Made by a program: the position numbers and the translations under genes. This document shows, one piece after another, positions 25,900-29,897 of a DNA stretch of 33,031 bases. The notes under the pieces are model-generated. The model saw nothing but the letters and a program-made list of their open reading frames with translations, had not been told where the DNA came from and searched no databases. How positions within the stretch are numbered: position 1 is the stretch's first letter; each line of letters opens with the position of its first letter. The DNA comes from Oscillospiraceae bacterium (GTDB lineage: Bacteria > Bacillota > Clostridia > Oscillospirales > Oscillospiraceae), in assembly GCA_017439805.1 (NCBI GenBank), contig JAFSIK010000078.1:1-33031 (forward strand), given 5' to 3'.

Positions 25900-26901
25900 A
25901 TGCTTATCCTGGCTGTTGAGTCCTCCTGTGACGAGACCGCGGTCTCCCTTGTGGAGGACGGACGAAAGCTGATATGTGATAAAATACTCTCCCAGACCGA
26001 CCACGCCATCTACGGCGGCGTTGTGCCGGAAATTGCTTCCCGCCGTCATATTGAGGCGGTGGGCGGTCTTGCCGACCTGGCTCTGGAGGGAATTGACAAG
26101 AGCAAAATCGACGCCGTGGCGGCAACCTACGCACCGGGCCTTATCGGCGCGGTGCTTGTGGGATTGAACTTTGCCAAATCCGCCGCCTATTCTCTGGGAG
26201 TGCCCTTTATCCCGGTGCACCACATGCGCGGCCATATCGCCGCAAACTATCTGGCCTTCCCGGAGCTTGAGCCGCCCTTCGCCGCCCTTGTGGTATCCGG
26301 CGGGCACAGTCTTATCGTGGATGTGCGCGGCTACACCGACATGGAGGTCATCGGCACCACCCGGGACGATGCGGCTGGTGAGTGCTTTGACAAGGTGGCA
26401 AGAGTGCTGGGACTTGGTTACCCCGGTGGCGCGGCGCTGGACGCCTTGTCCAAAACCGGCGACGATAAAAAATATCCTCTGCCCCGGGCTCACGCCGGAG
26501 ACAGTCCCTTTGACACATCCTTCTCCGGCCTGAAAACGGCGGTGATAAATCTCATCCACAATTCCCGCCAGAAAGGCGAGGAACTGGACGAGGCATCTCT
26601 GGCGGCATCCTTTGCCGCGGCGGTGTCCGACGCGCTGGTGCCCCGGGCGGTGGAAGCGACGAAGATGCTTGGCTACAAAAAGCTTGCCGTCTGCGGCGGC
26701 GTTGCGGCAAATTCCCGTATACGCAGTGACCTGACCCGCCTGTGCGATGGAAACGGCATTGAAATATTTGCTCCGCCGCTGAAGCTCTGCGGCGATAACG
26801 GAGCCATGATTGCCTCTCAGGCCTATTACGAGTATATGGCCGGCAAGCGGGGCGGACTGGACTGCAACGCCTACGCCACCATGGCAATAAACAACGGATA
26901 A
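25900..26901 (+). CDS. tsaD: tRNA N6-adenosine threonylcarbamoyltransferase TsaD
   Basis: TsaD transfers the threonylcarbamoyl group to A37 of tRNAs reading ANN codons, giving the universal t6A modification, together with TsaB and TsaE. The 333-aa protein opens with ESSCDETAVSLV. It has the metal-binding H108-M-R-G-H112 within PVHHMRGH, and the C-terminal ASKH/actin-like elements VCGGVAANSRIR and CGDNGAMIA. The ATG directly follows the rimI stop. It is the last gene of a run reaching back to 12501 and is followed by a strong bidirectional terminator. tsaB and tsaE must be elsewhere in the genome. Confidence 0.97.
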   Translation: MLILAVESSCDETAVSLVEDGRKLICDKILSQTDHAIYGGVVPEIASRRHIEAVGGLADLALEGIDKSKIDAVAATYAPGLIGAVLVGLNFAKSAAYSLGVPFIPVHHMRGHIAANYLAFPELEPPFAALVVSGGHSLIVDVRGYTDMEVIGTTRDDAAGECFDKVARVLGLGYPGGAALDALSKTGDDKKYPLPRAHAGDSPFDTSFSGLKTAVINLIHNSRQKGEELDEASLAASFAAAVSDALVPRAVEATKMLGYKKLAVCGGVAANSRIRSDLTRLCDGNGIEIFAPPLKLCGDNGAMIASQAYYEYMAGKRGGLDCNAYATMAINNG

Positions 26902-26940
26902 AAAAATCCCCGCTTCATCGAAGCGGGGATTTCTGTTTTT
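26901..26940. terminator. Bidirectional terminator between tsaD and lysC
   Basis: The stem AAATCCCCGCTTC (26904-26916) pairs perfectly with GAAGCGGGGATTT (26920-26932) across a 3-nt loop. T-rich sequence follows on the plus strand, and the six A residues before the stem give U's on the minus strand. It lies exactly between two convergent operons. Confidence 0.95.
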
Positions 26941-26943
26941 ATC

Positions 26944-28158
26944 TTATACCAGGTTGAAGAACTTTCTGTGAATTACCTGCATGGCCTGGTCGGCGTACTG
27001 GTTTTCGATGAGGACGGAGACCTTGATCTCACTGGTGGAGATCATATGTATGTTGATCTCGGCCTCGTACAGAGCCTCAAACATGGTGGCTGCGATACCG
27101 GGGTTGTCGATCATGCCGGCACCTACAACGCTGACCTTTACCAGAGAGTCGCTGACGTGCAGCTCTTCAAATCCCAGGTCCAGCTTGTTGGCGTTGAGCA
27201 CCTCAACGGCCTTTTCCTTGTCGCCCTTGCAGATGGTGAAGCTGATGTCCTTAACGTCGCCCCGTCCGATGGACTGCAGAATGATGTCAACATTGATGGA
27301 GTTTCTGGACAGCAGGGCAAATACTCTGTAAGCTCTGCCGGGTTCGTCCTTAATGCCGGTGAGAGCGATTCTTACTACATTATCGTCCTTTGCGATACCG
27401 CTTACGTGAAGTTTTTCCATGTTGGTTACGACCTCCTTAACAATAGTGCCGGGTTTTCTTGAGAAACTGGAGAGAACCTCCAGATTGATGTGGTATCTTT
27501 TTGCCATTTCAACGCTGCGGTTATGCAGGACCTTAGCGCCCAGGGAAGCAAGCTCAAGCATATCGTCGTAGGGGATTTCGTCCAGCTTGACCGCGTCCTT
27601 TATGATGCGGGGGTCCGCGCTGTAAATACCGTCAACGTCGGTGTAAATCTGGCACAGGGAGGCCTTCAGCGATGCCGCCAGAGCAACAGCGGTGGTATCA
27701 CTGCCGCCGCGTCCCAGGGTGGTGATGCTTTCAAACTTGTTTATGCCCTGGAAACCGGCTACTATGACGATGTTTTTCTTATCCAGCTCGTTTCTGATGC
27801 GCTCGGGGTCTATGCGCACGATACGGGCGGAGCTGTGGTGGGAAGTGGTTTTTATGCCGGCCTGCCACCCGGTCAGAGAAATGACGGGGAAGCCCAGCCG
27901 CTCGATAGCCATGGCCAGCAGGGACATGGACATCTGCTCGCCGCAGGCCAGGTAAACGTCCATTTCGCGCTTGGAGGCATTGGGATTTATCTCCGCAGCC
28001 TTGGCGAGCATGTCGTCGGTGGTGTCGCCTTGGGCGGAAACCACAACGACCACGTCGTTGCCGGCGCTGTAAGTTTCAGTAATGATTTTTGCAACATTAA
28101 AAACTCTTTCGGCGTTGGCCACGGAGCTGCCGCCGAATTTTTGCACAATAAGAGCCAT
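26944..28158 (-). CDS. lysC: Aspartate kinase
   Basis: LysC phosphorylates aspartate, the first step toward lysine, threonine, methionine and diaminopimelate. The 404-aa protein starts MALIVQKFGGSSVAN, the family signature (K7-F-G-G-S-S12). Further kinase motifs are TLGRGGSDTTAVALAA and TDVDGIYSADPRI. The C-terminal part (about 260-404) has two ACT domains that normally bind the feedback inhibitor. GGIKDEPGRAYRVF and VSVVGAGMIDNPGIAATMFEAL mark them, so this is the single-function, allosteric form. AGGAGG lies upstream of the ATG. It is the last gene of the operon, 17 nt after hom. Which amino acid inhibits it cannot be said. Confidence 0.97.
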   Translation of the reverse strand: MALIVQKFGGSSVANAERVFNVAKIITETYSAGNDVVVVVSAQGDTTDDMLAKAAEINPNASKREMDVYLACGEQMSMSLLAMAIERLGFPVISLTGWQAGIKTTSHHSSARIVRIDPERIRNELDKKNIVIVAGFQGINKFESITTLGRGGSDTTAVALAASLKASLCQIYTDVDGIYSADPRIIKDAVKLDEIPYDDMLELASLGAKVLHNRSVEMAKRYHINLEVLSSFSRKPGTIVKEVVTNMEKLHVSGIAKDDNVVRIALTGIKDEPGRAYRVFALLSRNSINVDIILQSIGRGDVKDISFTICKGDKEKAVEVLNANKLDLGFEELHVSDSLVKVSVVGAGMIDNPGIAATMFEALYEAEINIHMISTSEIKVSVLIENQYADQAMQVIHRKFFNLV

Positions 28159-28175: not shown

Positions 28176-29390
28176 TTATTCAAATACCCTGATTGCCGTT
28201 TCGGCAAGCTCTCCCACGGCGGAGGTCAGCTGCGCCGCGGTCATGGGGTCGGTGATGTATGCGTTATAGGGGCTGTCCGGGCAGCAGATGGGCTGTTTTC
28301 CGGCGAAGACGGCGGGTACGCTGTCTTTTTCGGTGCGGACAAACCATTTGAAAGGCAGGTCATCGCTGCTTTCAAGACGCTCGGGAGCGCTGTCGTTCCA
28401 GCTTATGCCCTTGCGGTGTTCAACGTGCATGGCGCAGTCGATAACATCGCCCACAACGGCGCTGGCGGTGGGCAGACTGCCCGCACCGGGGCCGTAGAAC
28501 ATTACCTCGCCCACGGCGTTGCCGCGAACGGTAATGGCGTTGAAAACGTCGTCAACGGTGGAAAGGGCGTTGCTTACGGGAACGAGGGAGGGAGCAACAA
28601 AGGCGCAGACCTTGCCCTTTTCCGTGGCGATTGCACGGCCTACAAGCTTGATTTTGTATCCGGCGGCCATGGCAAGAGCCATATCGTCAAGTGTGATTTT
28701 GGTAATACCCTCGCAGCTGATGCCCTCGGGATAGATGTGGTTGCCGAAAGCAAGAGTGCCAAGAATGCAGATTTTTCTGCAGGCATCGTGTCCCTGAATG
28801 TCGGCAGTGGGGTCGGCCTCCGCATAGCCCAGAGCCTGAGCCTGCTTCAAAGCCTCGTCAAAACCAAGACCCTCACGCTGCATCTTAGTAAGGATAAAGT
28901 TCGTGGTGCCGTTTAAAATGCCGCAGACCTCGCTTACCCGGTTGCCGCTGAGGCACTGCATCAGAGGACGCAGCACGGGGATACCGCCGCCAACGCTGGC
29001 CTCGAACATATAGTTGACTTTCTTTTCCTTGGCGATGGAGAGCAGCTCATAGCCATGCTTTGCCACCAGTTCCTTGTTGCTGGTAACAAGACTCTTACCG
29101 GCGGAAAGGGCGCGTTTGGAAAATTCATAGGCGATTTTCGCGCCGCCGATGGTTTCCACAACGATATCCACATCGGGATCGTTTTCAATAACGGCAAAGT
29201 CGTGTACAACTTTATCGGCATAAGGACTGTCGGGGAAGTCACGCACGTCAAGGATGTATTTAAGCTCCACAGGGCGACCGACCTTGGCCTTGACCAGATC
29301 GGCGTTCATATCCAGCACCTGAGCAACACCGCTGCCCACGATGCCGAAACCCATTATAGCAACATTGATCTTCTCTTTCAATATGTTCAC
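28176..29390 (-). CDS. hom: Homoserine dehydrogenase
   Basis: Hom reduces aspartate semialdehyde to homoserine with NAD(P)H, the branch leading to threonine and methionine. The Rossmann loop is G14-F-G-I-V-G-S-G21. Other signatures are TSNKE (103-107), the substrate motif ILNGTTNFIL (158-167), and the catalytic pair D202/K206 in GHDACRK. At 404 aa it is about 30 residues shorter than the classical form with a C-terminal ACT domain. The tail (about 346-404, FKWFVRTEKDSVPAVFAG) lacks the D-x-P-G-V-L-A core, so the ACT domain looks degenerate. The GTG start overlaps the stop of the ACT-domain gene (GTGA), indicating coupled translation; no strong ribosome binding site is visible. Confidence 0.96.
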   Translation of the reverse strand: MNILKEKINVAIMGFGIVGSGVAQVLDMNADLVKAKVGRPVELKYILDVRDFPDSPYADKVVHDFAVIENDPDVDIVVETIGGAKIAYEFSKRALSAGKSLVTSNKELVAKHGYELLSIAKEKKVNYMFEASVGGGIPVLRPLMQCLSGNRVSEVCGILNGTTNFILTKMQREGLGFDEALKQAQALGYAEADPTADIQGHDACRKICILGTLAFGNHIYPEGISCEGITKITLDDMALAMAAGYKIKLVGRAIATEKGKVCAFVAPSLVPVSNALSTVDDVFNAITVRGNAVGEVMFYGPGAGSLPTASAVVGDVIDCAMHVEHRKGISWNDSAPERLESSDDLPFKWFVRTEKDSVPAVFAGKQPICCPDSPYNAYITDPMTAAQLTSAVGELAETAIRVFE

Positions 29391-29827
29391 CCCGCTAAAA
29401 CGTTAAGTTTGATAACTCCGGGCACCTTGCCCATTTCCTTTAAAAAGTCTTCCATACTCATCACCATACCGCCGGTCTGGGCGCTGATGGTGACAACGGC
29501 ACGCCCGTCAGAGGGCACGCTCTGGTTGATGGTGAGAATATTGGCGCCAACCTCGGCAAAAGCATTGAGCACGGCGGAAAGAGTGCCCTTGATATCCTTG
29601 AGCAGTACGCTGAAGGTGACAACTCTGCCGGATATCATGTCCTGGAAAGGGGAGATGGAATCCTTGTATTTATAAAAGGAGCTGCGGCTGATGTCCGCGA
29701 TTGCGATAGCCTCGCTGACGGTTCTTGCCTCGCCCGTTTCAAGAAGAGTTTTTGCCTGAATGACCTTTAAAAATATCTCCGGAAGGGCGGAAGTTTCTAT
29801 CAGATAATACTTGGCAAGCTGCTCCAT
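29387..29827 (-). CDS. ACT-domain protein of the UPF0735/PheB family
   Basis: A 146-aa protein of the family known as PheB in Bacillus. The N-terminal half has a helix-turn-helix-like segment, TVSEAIAIADISRSSFYKYKDSI (about 36-58). The C-terminal half is an ACT domain: VVTFSVLLKDIKGTLSAVLNAFAEVGANILTINQ (about 69-102). ACT domains usually bind amino acids. The family commonly sits upstream of hom, as here, and its molecular role is not established. A regulator of the threonine branch or of hom activity is plausible. AGGAGG lies 8 nt before the ATG. It is the first gene of the three-gene operon. Confidence 0.92.
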   Translation of the reverse strand: MEQLAKYYLIETSALPEIFLKVIQAKTLLETGEARTVSEAIAIADISRSSFYKYKDSISPFQDMISGRVVTFSVLLKDIKGTLSAVLNAFAEVGANILTINQSVPSDGRAVVTISAQTGGMVMSMEDFLKEMGKVPGVIKLNVLAG

Positions 29828-29868
29828 GTATATCGCCTCCTACTGACAAATGTTTTTCTATGCCGTAT

Positions 29869-29897
29869 ATATTACCACAGGCGGACAGTTTATGCAA
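29869..29897 (-). promoter_or_regulatory. Promoter of the ACT-hom-lysC operon
   Basis: On the minus strand TTGCAT (29897-29892) and TAATAT (29874-29869) are separated by exactly 17 nt. The leader would be about 35 nt, too short for a lysine riboswitch or T-box, and none is seen. Confidence 0.6.

Follow-up and report, generated by a model that had tools for sequence, protein, structure and literature searches.

What does a free-standing ACT-domain protein do when its gene overlaps the start of hom, and when the homoserine dehydrogenase (Hom) encoded there ends in a shortened tail? The question is raised by a contig of 33,031 nucleotides from an Oscillospiraceae bacterium of the order Oscillospirales (JAFSIK010000078.1, assembly GCA_017439805.1), referred to below in its entirety as the window. 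A sequence-only reading of this locus had proposed that the free ACT protein supplies the threonine control that Hom has lost, acting either on the enzyme or on transcription. The analysis reported here points to transcription: it is highly likely, in our judgement, that the protein is a ThrR-type repressor whose helix-turn-helix binds a palindrome in the promoter, whose ACT domain recognises an amino acid ligand, probably threonine, and which would thereby control its own thrR-hom-lysC operon.

Layout of the locus

The genes and junctions that matter are these:

29387..29827, minus strand: thrR-family gene (old name PheB; NCBIfam PRK04435), 146 amino acids, helix-turn-helix plus ACT (NF003361, Pfam ACT, AlphaFold2)
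29387..29390, minus strand: 4 nt in which the thrR stop overlaps the GTG start of hom (coordinates and sequence)
28176..29390, minus strand: hom, homoserine dehydrogenase, 404 amino acids, GTG start (PF00742, NF004976)
26944..28158, minus strand: lysC, monofunctional aspartate kinase with ACT domains (coordinates and profile matches)

The overlap suggests that thrR and hom may be translationally coupled, and the gap of 17 nt between hom and lysC points to lysC as probably the third gene of a thrR-hom-lysC operon. Named loci (Flavonifractor, Agathobaculum, Oscillospiraceae MAGs and others) were also compared, a set that leans towards the window because the 80 closest of at least 592 were taken. 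Among these, an aspartate kinase lies within 1.5 kb downstream at 27 of the 35 testable loci with an adjacent thrR and at 25 of the 36 without. In two genomes of one genus of the order (g27, family f18) thrR is followed by an aspartate kinase of 243-258 amino acids that stops where the kinase domain ends and lacks both ACT domains (L306:3135-4443 and L308:4047-5338); hom in these genomes lies on another contig and has a degenerate tail.

The upstream gene encodes a ThrR-family protein

Judged by its profile matches, the upstream ACT protein is a member of the ThrR family. It scores 163.6 bits against NF003361 (cut-off 131) with residues 3-145 of its 146 covered, and this profile, applied at E<=1e-20 to 14 control genomes, found a match in B. 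subtilis only. Pfam ACT is matched at 33.1 bits (cut-off 27) and HTH_7 below threshold (15 bits against 23.8, E=0.027). The AlphaFold2 model (34 sequences, mean pLDDT 88.9) comprises three N-terminal helices, at residues 17-31, 37-44 and 48-54, and a complete ACT fold, giving two features:

29666..29719, minus strand: predicted helix-turn-helix of ThrR, residues 37-54, with the conserved SRS..YKY stretch (second and third model helices)
29393..29623, minus strand: ACT domain of ThrR, residues 69-145 (model, conservation and fold match)

Residues S47, R48, S49, Y52, K53 and Y54 are invariant across the 34 sequences, and the mean frequency of the majority residue is 0.74 in the helix-turn-helix as against 0.57 in the ACT part. 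The ACT loop of the window protein (residues 78-83) reads D-I-K-G-T-L where the majority has D-E-P-G-V-L, and the majority Pro80 is thus absent. When the model was searched with Foldseek, the top ten matches were all to the DNA-binding regulator NikR; the whole-chain rmsd is above 12, so the agreement is confined to the parts. The ACT part alone resembles the regulatory subunits of acetohydroxyacid synthase (2f1f, Z 12.4, rmsd 2.0, 77 residues aligned).

Hom has a degenerate ACT tail

The catalytic part of Hom is readily recognised, with 215.2 bits against Pfam Homoserine_dh (PF00742), a match to NAD_binding_3 and 417.4 bits against NF004976 (PRK06349 subfamily, cut-off 205), the last of these ending at residue 358. 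A Pfam search of Hom up to E=10 found no ACT domain and, in alignment, the window Hom lacks the P-G-V-L loop. In the AlphaFold2 model (58 sequences, mean pLDDT 94.9) the tail is made up of a strand (347-354), a second strand (375-379), a helix (385-395) and a last strand (396-402):

28185..28352, minus strand: degenerate ACT tail of Hom, residues 347-402 (no Pfam ACT match; AlphaFold2 model)

As modelled, this tail appears to be an ACT remnant that lacks a regular first helix as well as the second strand, where the effector loop usually sits. Pfam, alignment and model thus bear out the sequence-only reading that the Hom tail is shortened and lacks the P-G-V-L-A core, just as the Pfam ACT match and the model of the upstream protein confirm its description of the overlapping gene as encoding an ACT domain with a helix-turn-helix-like part.

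The same state prevails across the order. A survey of Hom in Oscillospirales yielded 161 loci from 159 of 188 matching genomes (197 drawn), with two genomes giving two loci each. A loop of the P-G-V-L type is present in one of these Homs; the tail is degenerate in 137, almost absent in 20 and cut off in three. The three were excluded from the comparison below, and a match to the loop pattern in a further Hom (L013, EAAGAM, in a tail of 82 amino acids) was set aside as chance. The sole P-G-V-L Hom (L002, G183:C66) is an extra copy without an adjacent thrR, and the other Hom of the same genome (L115) has a degenerate tail and an adjacent thrR. The 20 tailless Homs (L036, L052, L120, L122, L123 and others) extend less than 65 amino acids past the AVV-D motif and belong to families f2, f10, f19 and f20. 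Among the 80 window-leaning named loci, 78 Homs have a degenerate tail, one is short, one is cut and none has the loop. Outside the order, 110 Hom loci were obtained from 109 of 142 matching genomes, two of the 142 belonging to the order itself. Seventeen of the 110 lack the loop pattern and were left out of the intact group; 15 of them have tails of 114-125 amino acids, and the other two, from genomes of the same class, have short tails of 91 and 99 amino acids.

ThrR does not track the state of the Hom tail

If the free ACT protein made good the loss of the Hom ACT core, the two should go together, as the sequence-only reading had proposed. They do not. The free ACT gene adjoins hom in 119 of the 271 Hom loci surveyed; thrR is adjacent to 60, elsewhere for 11 and not found for 66 of the 137 degenerate-tail Homs in the order, as against 50, 2 and 41, respectively, for the 93 intact-loop Homs outside it. 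With relatedness ignored, the difference is not significant for adjacent thrR (Fisher p=0.14) or for any ThrR (p=0.59), and a thrR 'not found' in a draft genome can be an assembly gap. Compensation for the lost ACT core was accordingly rejected, the gene standing about as often beside intact enzymes as beside degenerate ones, which is an outcome that the sequence-only reading had itself named as refuting; with it goes the proposal that the free protein supplies the lost threonine control.

No thrR was detected in any of the 20 genomes with a tailless Hom, and the difference from degenerate-tail Homs (p=2.7e-6, relatedness again ignored) runs in the direction opposite to compensation. The four families concerned gave one fetched, uncut locus in a ThrR-bearing genome; since they are thus nearly free of ThrR, the association between tailless Hom and missing ThrR may reflect shared descent. 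The simplest account of the shortened Hom tail is inheritance within the order, with no tie to ThrR.

A palindromic candidate operator at thrR and hom promoters

A usable thrR start was available for 102 of the 119 adjacent loci (53 outside the order and 49 within it; 17 dropped), one in-order promoter being too short for leave-family-out and template scoring (48 kept). An unbiased motif search of the 53 outside promoters returned an extended -10 box and, downstream of it, GTCTAC and a core resembling GGACAAATGTCC. When the outside sites are anchored on this core, TGTC stands at -16 in 38 of 47 and GACA at +12 in 22 of 47; in-order sites have the GACA arm at the same +12 offset in 18 of 34, the TGTC arm being mostly lost (2 of 34 at -16). 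The candidate operator is therefore a symmetric 40-bp palindrome, TGTC-N12-ACANNTGT-N12-GACA.

At least 11 of its 14 positions are matched in 40 of 53 thrR promoters outside the order (shuffle mean 0.24) and in 25 of 48 within it (shuffle mean 0.08), the template in both cases having been derived from the sites themselves. When a template settled in advance was applied to the named thrR-hom loci, 27 of 43 reached the same level (shuffle mean 0.10); some genomes of this set may also be in the first. Agathobaculum massiliense and Flavonifractor sp. An10, for example, each match 11 of 14. Leave-one-family-out scoring in the order gave 32 of 48 sites that reach <=1 of 100 shuffles. A first scan of about 1050 nt with the outside matrix (score >=12) had given, outside the order, 51 of 57 loci with adjacent thrR (the training set), 3 of 6 with thrR elsewhere and 1 of 44 with none; the corresponding in-order counts (8 of 60, 1 of 10 and 0 of 80) are low, showing that the outside matrix alone is weak in the order.

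Where thrR lies elsewhere in the genome, 13 of 18 hom promoters carry a site when scanned with matrices trained on thrR promoters, as against 11 of 126 where no thrR was detected (p=1.3e-8, relatedness again ignored); the contrast holds in the order (7 of 11 against 9 of 82) and outside it (6 of 7 against 2 of 44). Three of the five hom promoters with thrR elsewhere that lack a site belong to second hom copies (L002, L128, L257), and of the nine in-order hom promoters with a site but no detected thrR, two (L054, L059) come from genomes 62-64% complete in a genus carrying thrR. Because the palindrome is found at hom promoters even when thrR is elsewhere, transcription is the level at which the ACT protein most probably acts, and this half of the original proposal is now well supported by NF003361 membership, the precedent of B. 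subtilis ThrR and the 13 of 18 hom promoters. As for the non-adjacent thrR promoters themselves, only 9 of 20 reach <=2 of 200 shuffles with either matrix.

Allowing up to two mismatches, a genome-wide scan for the promoter pattern gave 53 places in 71 ThrR-bearing genomes from outside the order; 34 of these lie at a thrR or hom promoter, and the reversed control matches 11 times. If no more than one mismatch is allowed, 13 of the 14 places are at thrR or hom. Seven genomes outside the training set were matched (G220, G229, G244, G282, G286, G299 and G333), G244 and G282 sharing a genus with a training-set genome. A one-mismatch match away from both genes (G243:C32:143721-143751) may be a further ThrR target or a chance hit. 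Searched genome-wide, the bare 40-bp pattern is less specific than the promoter pattern. Outside the order, all five exact copies among the matches listed are at thrR or hom promoters, and with one mismatch the reversed control is equally frequent; within the order, a scan of 80 of the 87 genomes with ThrR gave 34 places (<=1 mismatch) against 21 for the reversed control, three of the 34 being at thrR or hom (G025, G058, G145). Each of the three exact in-order copies is embedded in a long reading frame (466, 583 and 917 codons) away from thrR and hom, and they were taken as chance.

One genome, G334, links these loci to the Bacillus arrangement: spo0B, obg, thrR and pheA are consecutive (Pfam), and hom lies some 456 kb away with an exact copy of the 40-bp palindrome just before it; G299 has an exact copy at hom and thrR on another contig; and G333 has matching sites at the hom promoter and at a separate thrR promoter. 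In two further genomes (G199 and G319), free-standing thrR adjoins spoIVA rather than hom or obg (L323, L325), and the hom promoters (L283, L289) still carry the candidate operator.

The site in the window

The window's own copy is a poor one:

29830..29869, minus strand: place of the operator-like palindrome; the core ACATTTGT alone remains, with 8 of 14 template positions matched

The core stands at 29846-29853, the expected place, but this best match of 8/14 is at chance level, and two other places within 300 nt score the same. When the last 70 nt are shuffled and scored with a matrix built without the window's family, 250 of 1000 shuffles equal the site; a leave-family-out scan of 200 nt prefers a different place, with a score that 34 of 100 shuffles reach. 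The decayed candidate site may nevertheless still be functional. Together with the variant D-I-K-G-T-L loop of the protein, it could mean a drifting or differently tuned regulator. A T-box or riboswitch upstream of thrR was considered and rejected: no Rfam family reaches its gathering score between 25000 and 31000 of the window, and a permissive search gave two sub-threshold leader matches at 26899-27007, which is not upstream of thrR.

Alternative explanations

Could the ACT protein instead serve Hom as a regulatory subunit, making contact with the tail remnant and conferring threonine inhibition in trans? The 4-nt overlap of the two genes, the ACT-type strands that the model retains in the Hom tail, the likeness of the ThrR ACT part to the acetohydroxyacid synthase subunits and the failure to detect ThrR in the 20 genomes with a tailless Hom would all suit such a partnership. 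The protein, however, keeps a conserved helix-turn-helix; its gene is equally often beside intact-ACT Homs (50/93) and degenerate ones (60/137); an operator-like site marks 13 of the 18 hom promoters with thrR elsewhere; and the tailless Homs are confined to four families with a single fetched, uncut locus in a ThrR-bearing genome. We therefore regard a subunit role as improbable. Still less credit is due to a role in phenylalanine synthesis, as implied by the old name PheB. It is true that thrR precedes pheA in G334 and in B. subtilis, but the gene adjoins hom at 119 of 271 loci, the pheB annotation is called incorrect in PMC1173090, and B. subtilis ThrR regulates hom-thrCB according to PMC8226366; we consider this reading very unlikely indeed.

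A different objection concerns the palindrome, which might be an RNA leader or a promoter feature rather than a protein operator, with ThrR acting in some other way. Its fixed distance past the -10 box, and the probable transcription of part of it, would fit. Against this, the left TGTC arm directly adjoins the -10 box and so is unlikely to be transcribed, both arms lie symmetrically around the core (TGTC at -16 in 38/47; GACA at +12 in 22/47 outside and 18/34 within the order), no Rfam family reaches its gathering score in the region searched, and the palindrome is rare at hom promoters without a detected ThrR (11/126). An RNA or promoter feature thus seems to us a poor prospect, and a protein operator is the preferred reading.

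A model for ThrR at this locus

In the mechanism that we favour, the N-terminal helix-turn-helix of ThrR would bind TGTC-N12-ACANNTGT-N12-GACA just downstream of the -10 box, the C-terminal ACT domain would sense an amino acid, probably threonine, and ThrR would in this way control its own operon, here the presumably co-transcribed thrR-hom-lysC, with repression as the likely direction of control. A bolder proposal, covering the whole order, is that feedback on the threonine branch has moved from enzyme to transcription: the Hom effector loop is lost almost throughout, the thrR-adjacent aspartate kinase of one genus is without both ACT domains, and ThrR, on a palindrome of four half-sites, could be the main remaining threonine sensor where it is kept. 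We offer this tentatively and consider it rather unlikely.

The analysis gives the misnamed PheB gene, a frequent neighbour of hom in these Firmicutes, a concrete role as ThrR that can be tested, together with a defined candidate operator, and it is the wide conservation of this candidate operator that is the useful part. That degeneration of the Hom ACT domain is common, and does not follow the presence of the neighbouring free ACT gene, guards against a tempting but wrong inference.

Comparison with known systems

NikR-type regulators, the top Foldseek matches, have in common with ThrR the order of their domains, a DNA-binding domain followed by an ACT-like ligand domain. NikR is a nickel regulator and its DNA-binding fold is other than that of ThrR. 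Three-domain Homs with a C-terminal ACT domain, such as those of B. subtilis and mycobacteria (6dzs), have catalytic domains like those of the window Hom, the model of which matches the 6dzs chains over its full length (TM 0.90-0.91 by query); by comparison, the window tail is without the D-x-P-G-V-L loop, the regular first helix and the second ACT strand. In C. difficile, hom is reportedly preceded by two T-boxes (PMC11477304), implying that other Clostridia may control hom through RNA.

The closest known system is that of B. subtilis ThrR (formerly PheB). PMC8226366 describes it as the repressor of threonine biosynthetic genes with hom-thrC-thrB among its targets, places thrR in a spo0B-obg-thrR-pheA context, reports that a hom promoter mutation in the ThrR site raises lacZ expression from 275 to 970 units, and cites Rosenberg et al. 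2016 for DNA binding and hom repression. Our literature search, which did not include Rosenberg et al. 2016, found no account of the palindrome in Clostridia; the B. subtilis ThrR site may be the same palindrome, already in print. A thrR-hom-lysC operon under its own ThrR repressor is a known kind of system. The two proteins belong to the same NCBIfam equivalog (NF003361), each has an ACT domain and each has hom as target or neighbour. They differ in that the window protein has a D-I-K-G-T-L ACT loop and a decayed candidate operator, and in that the window thrR, rather than standing in a spo0B-obg-thrR-pheA cluster, lies directly before hom.
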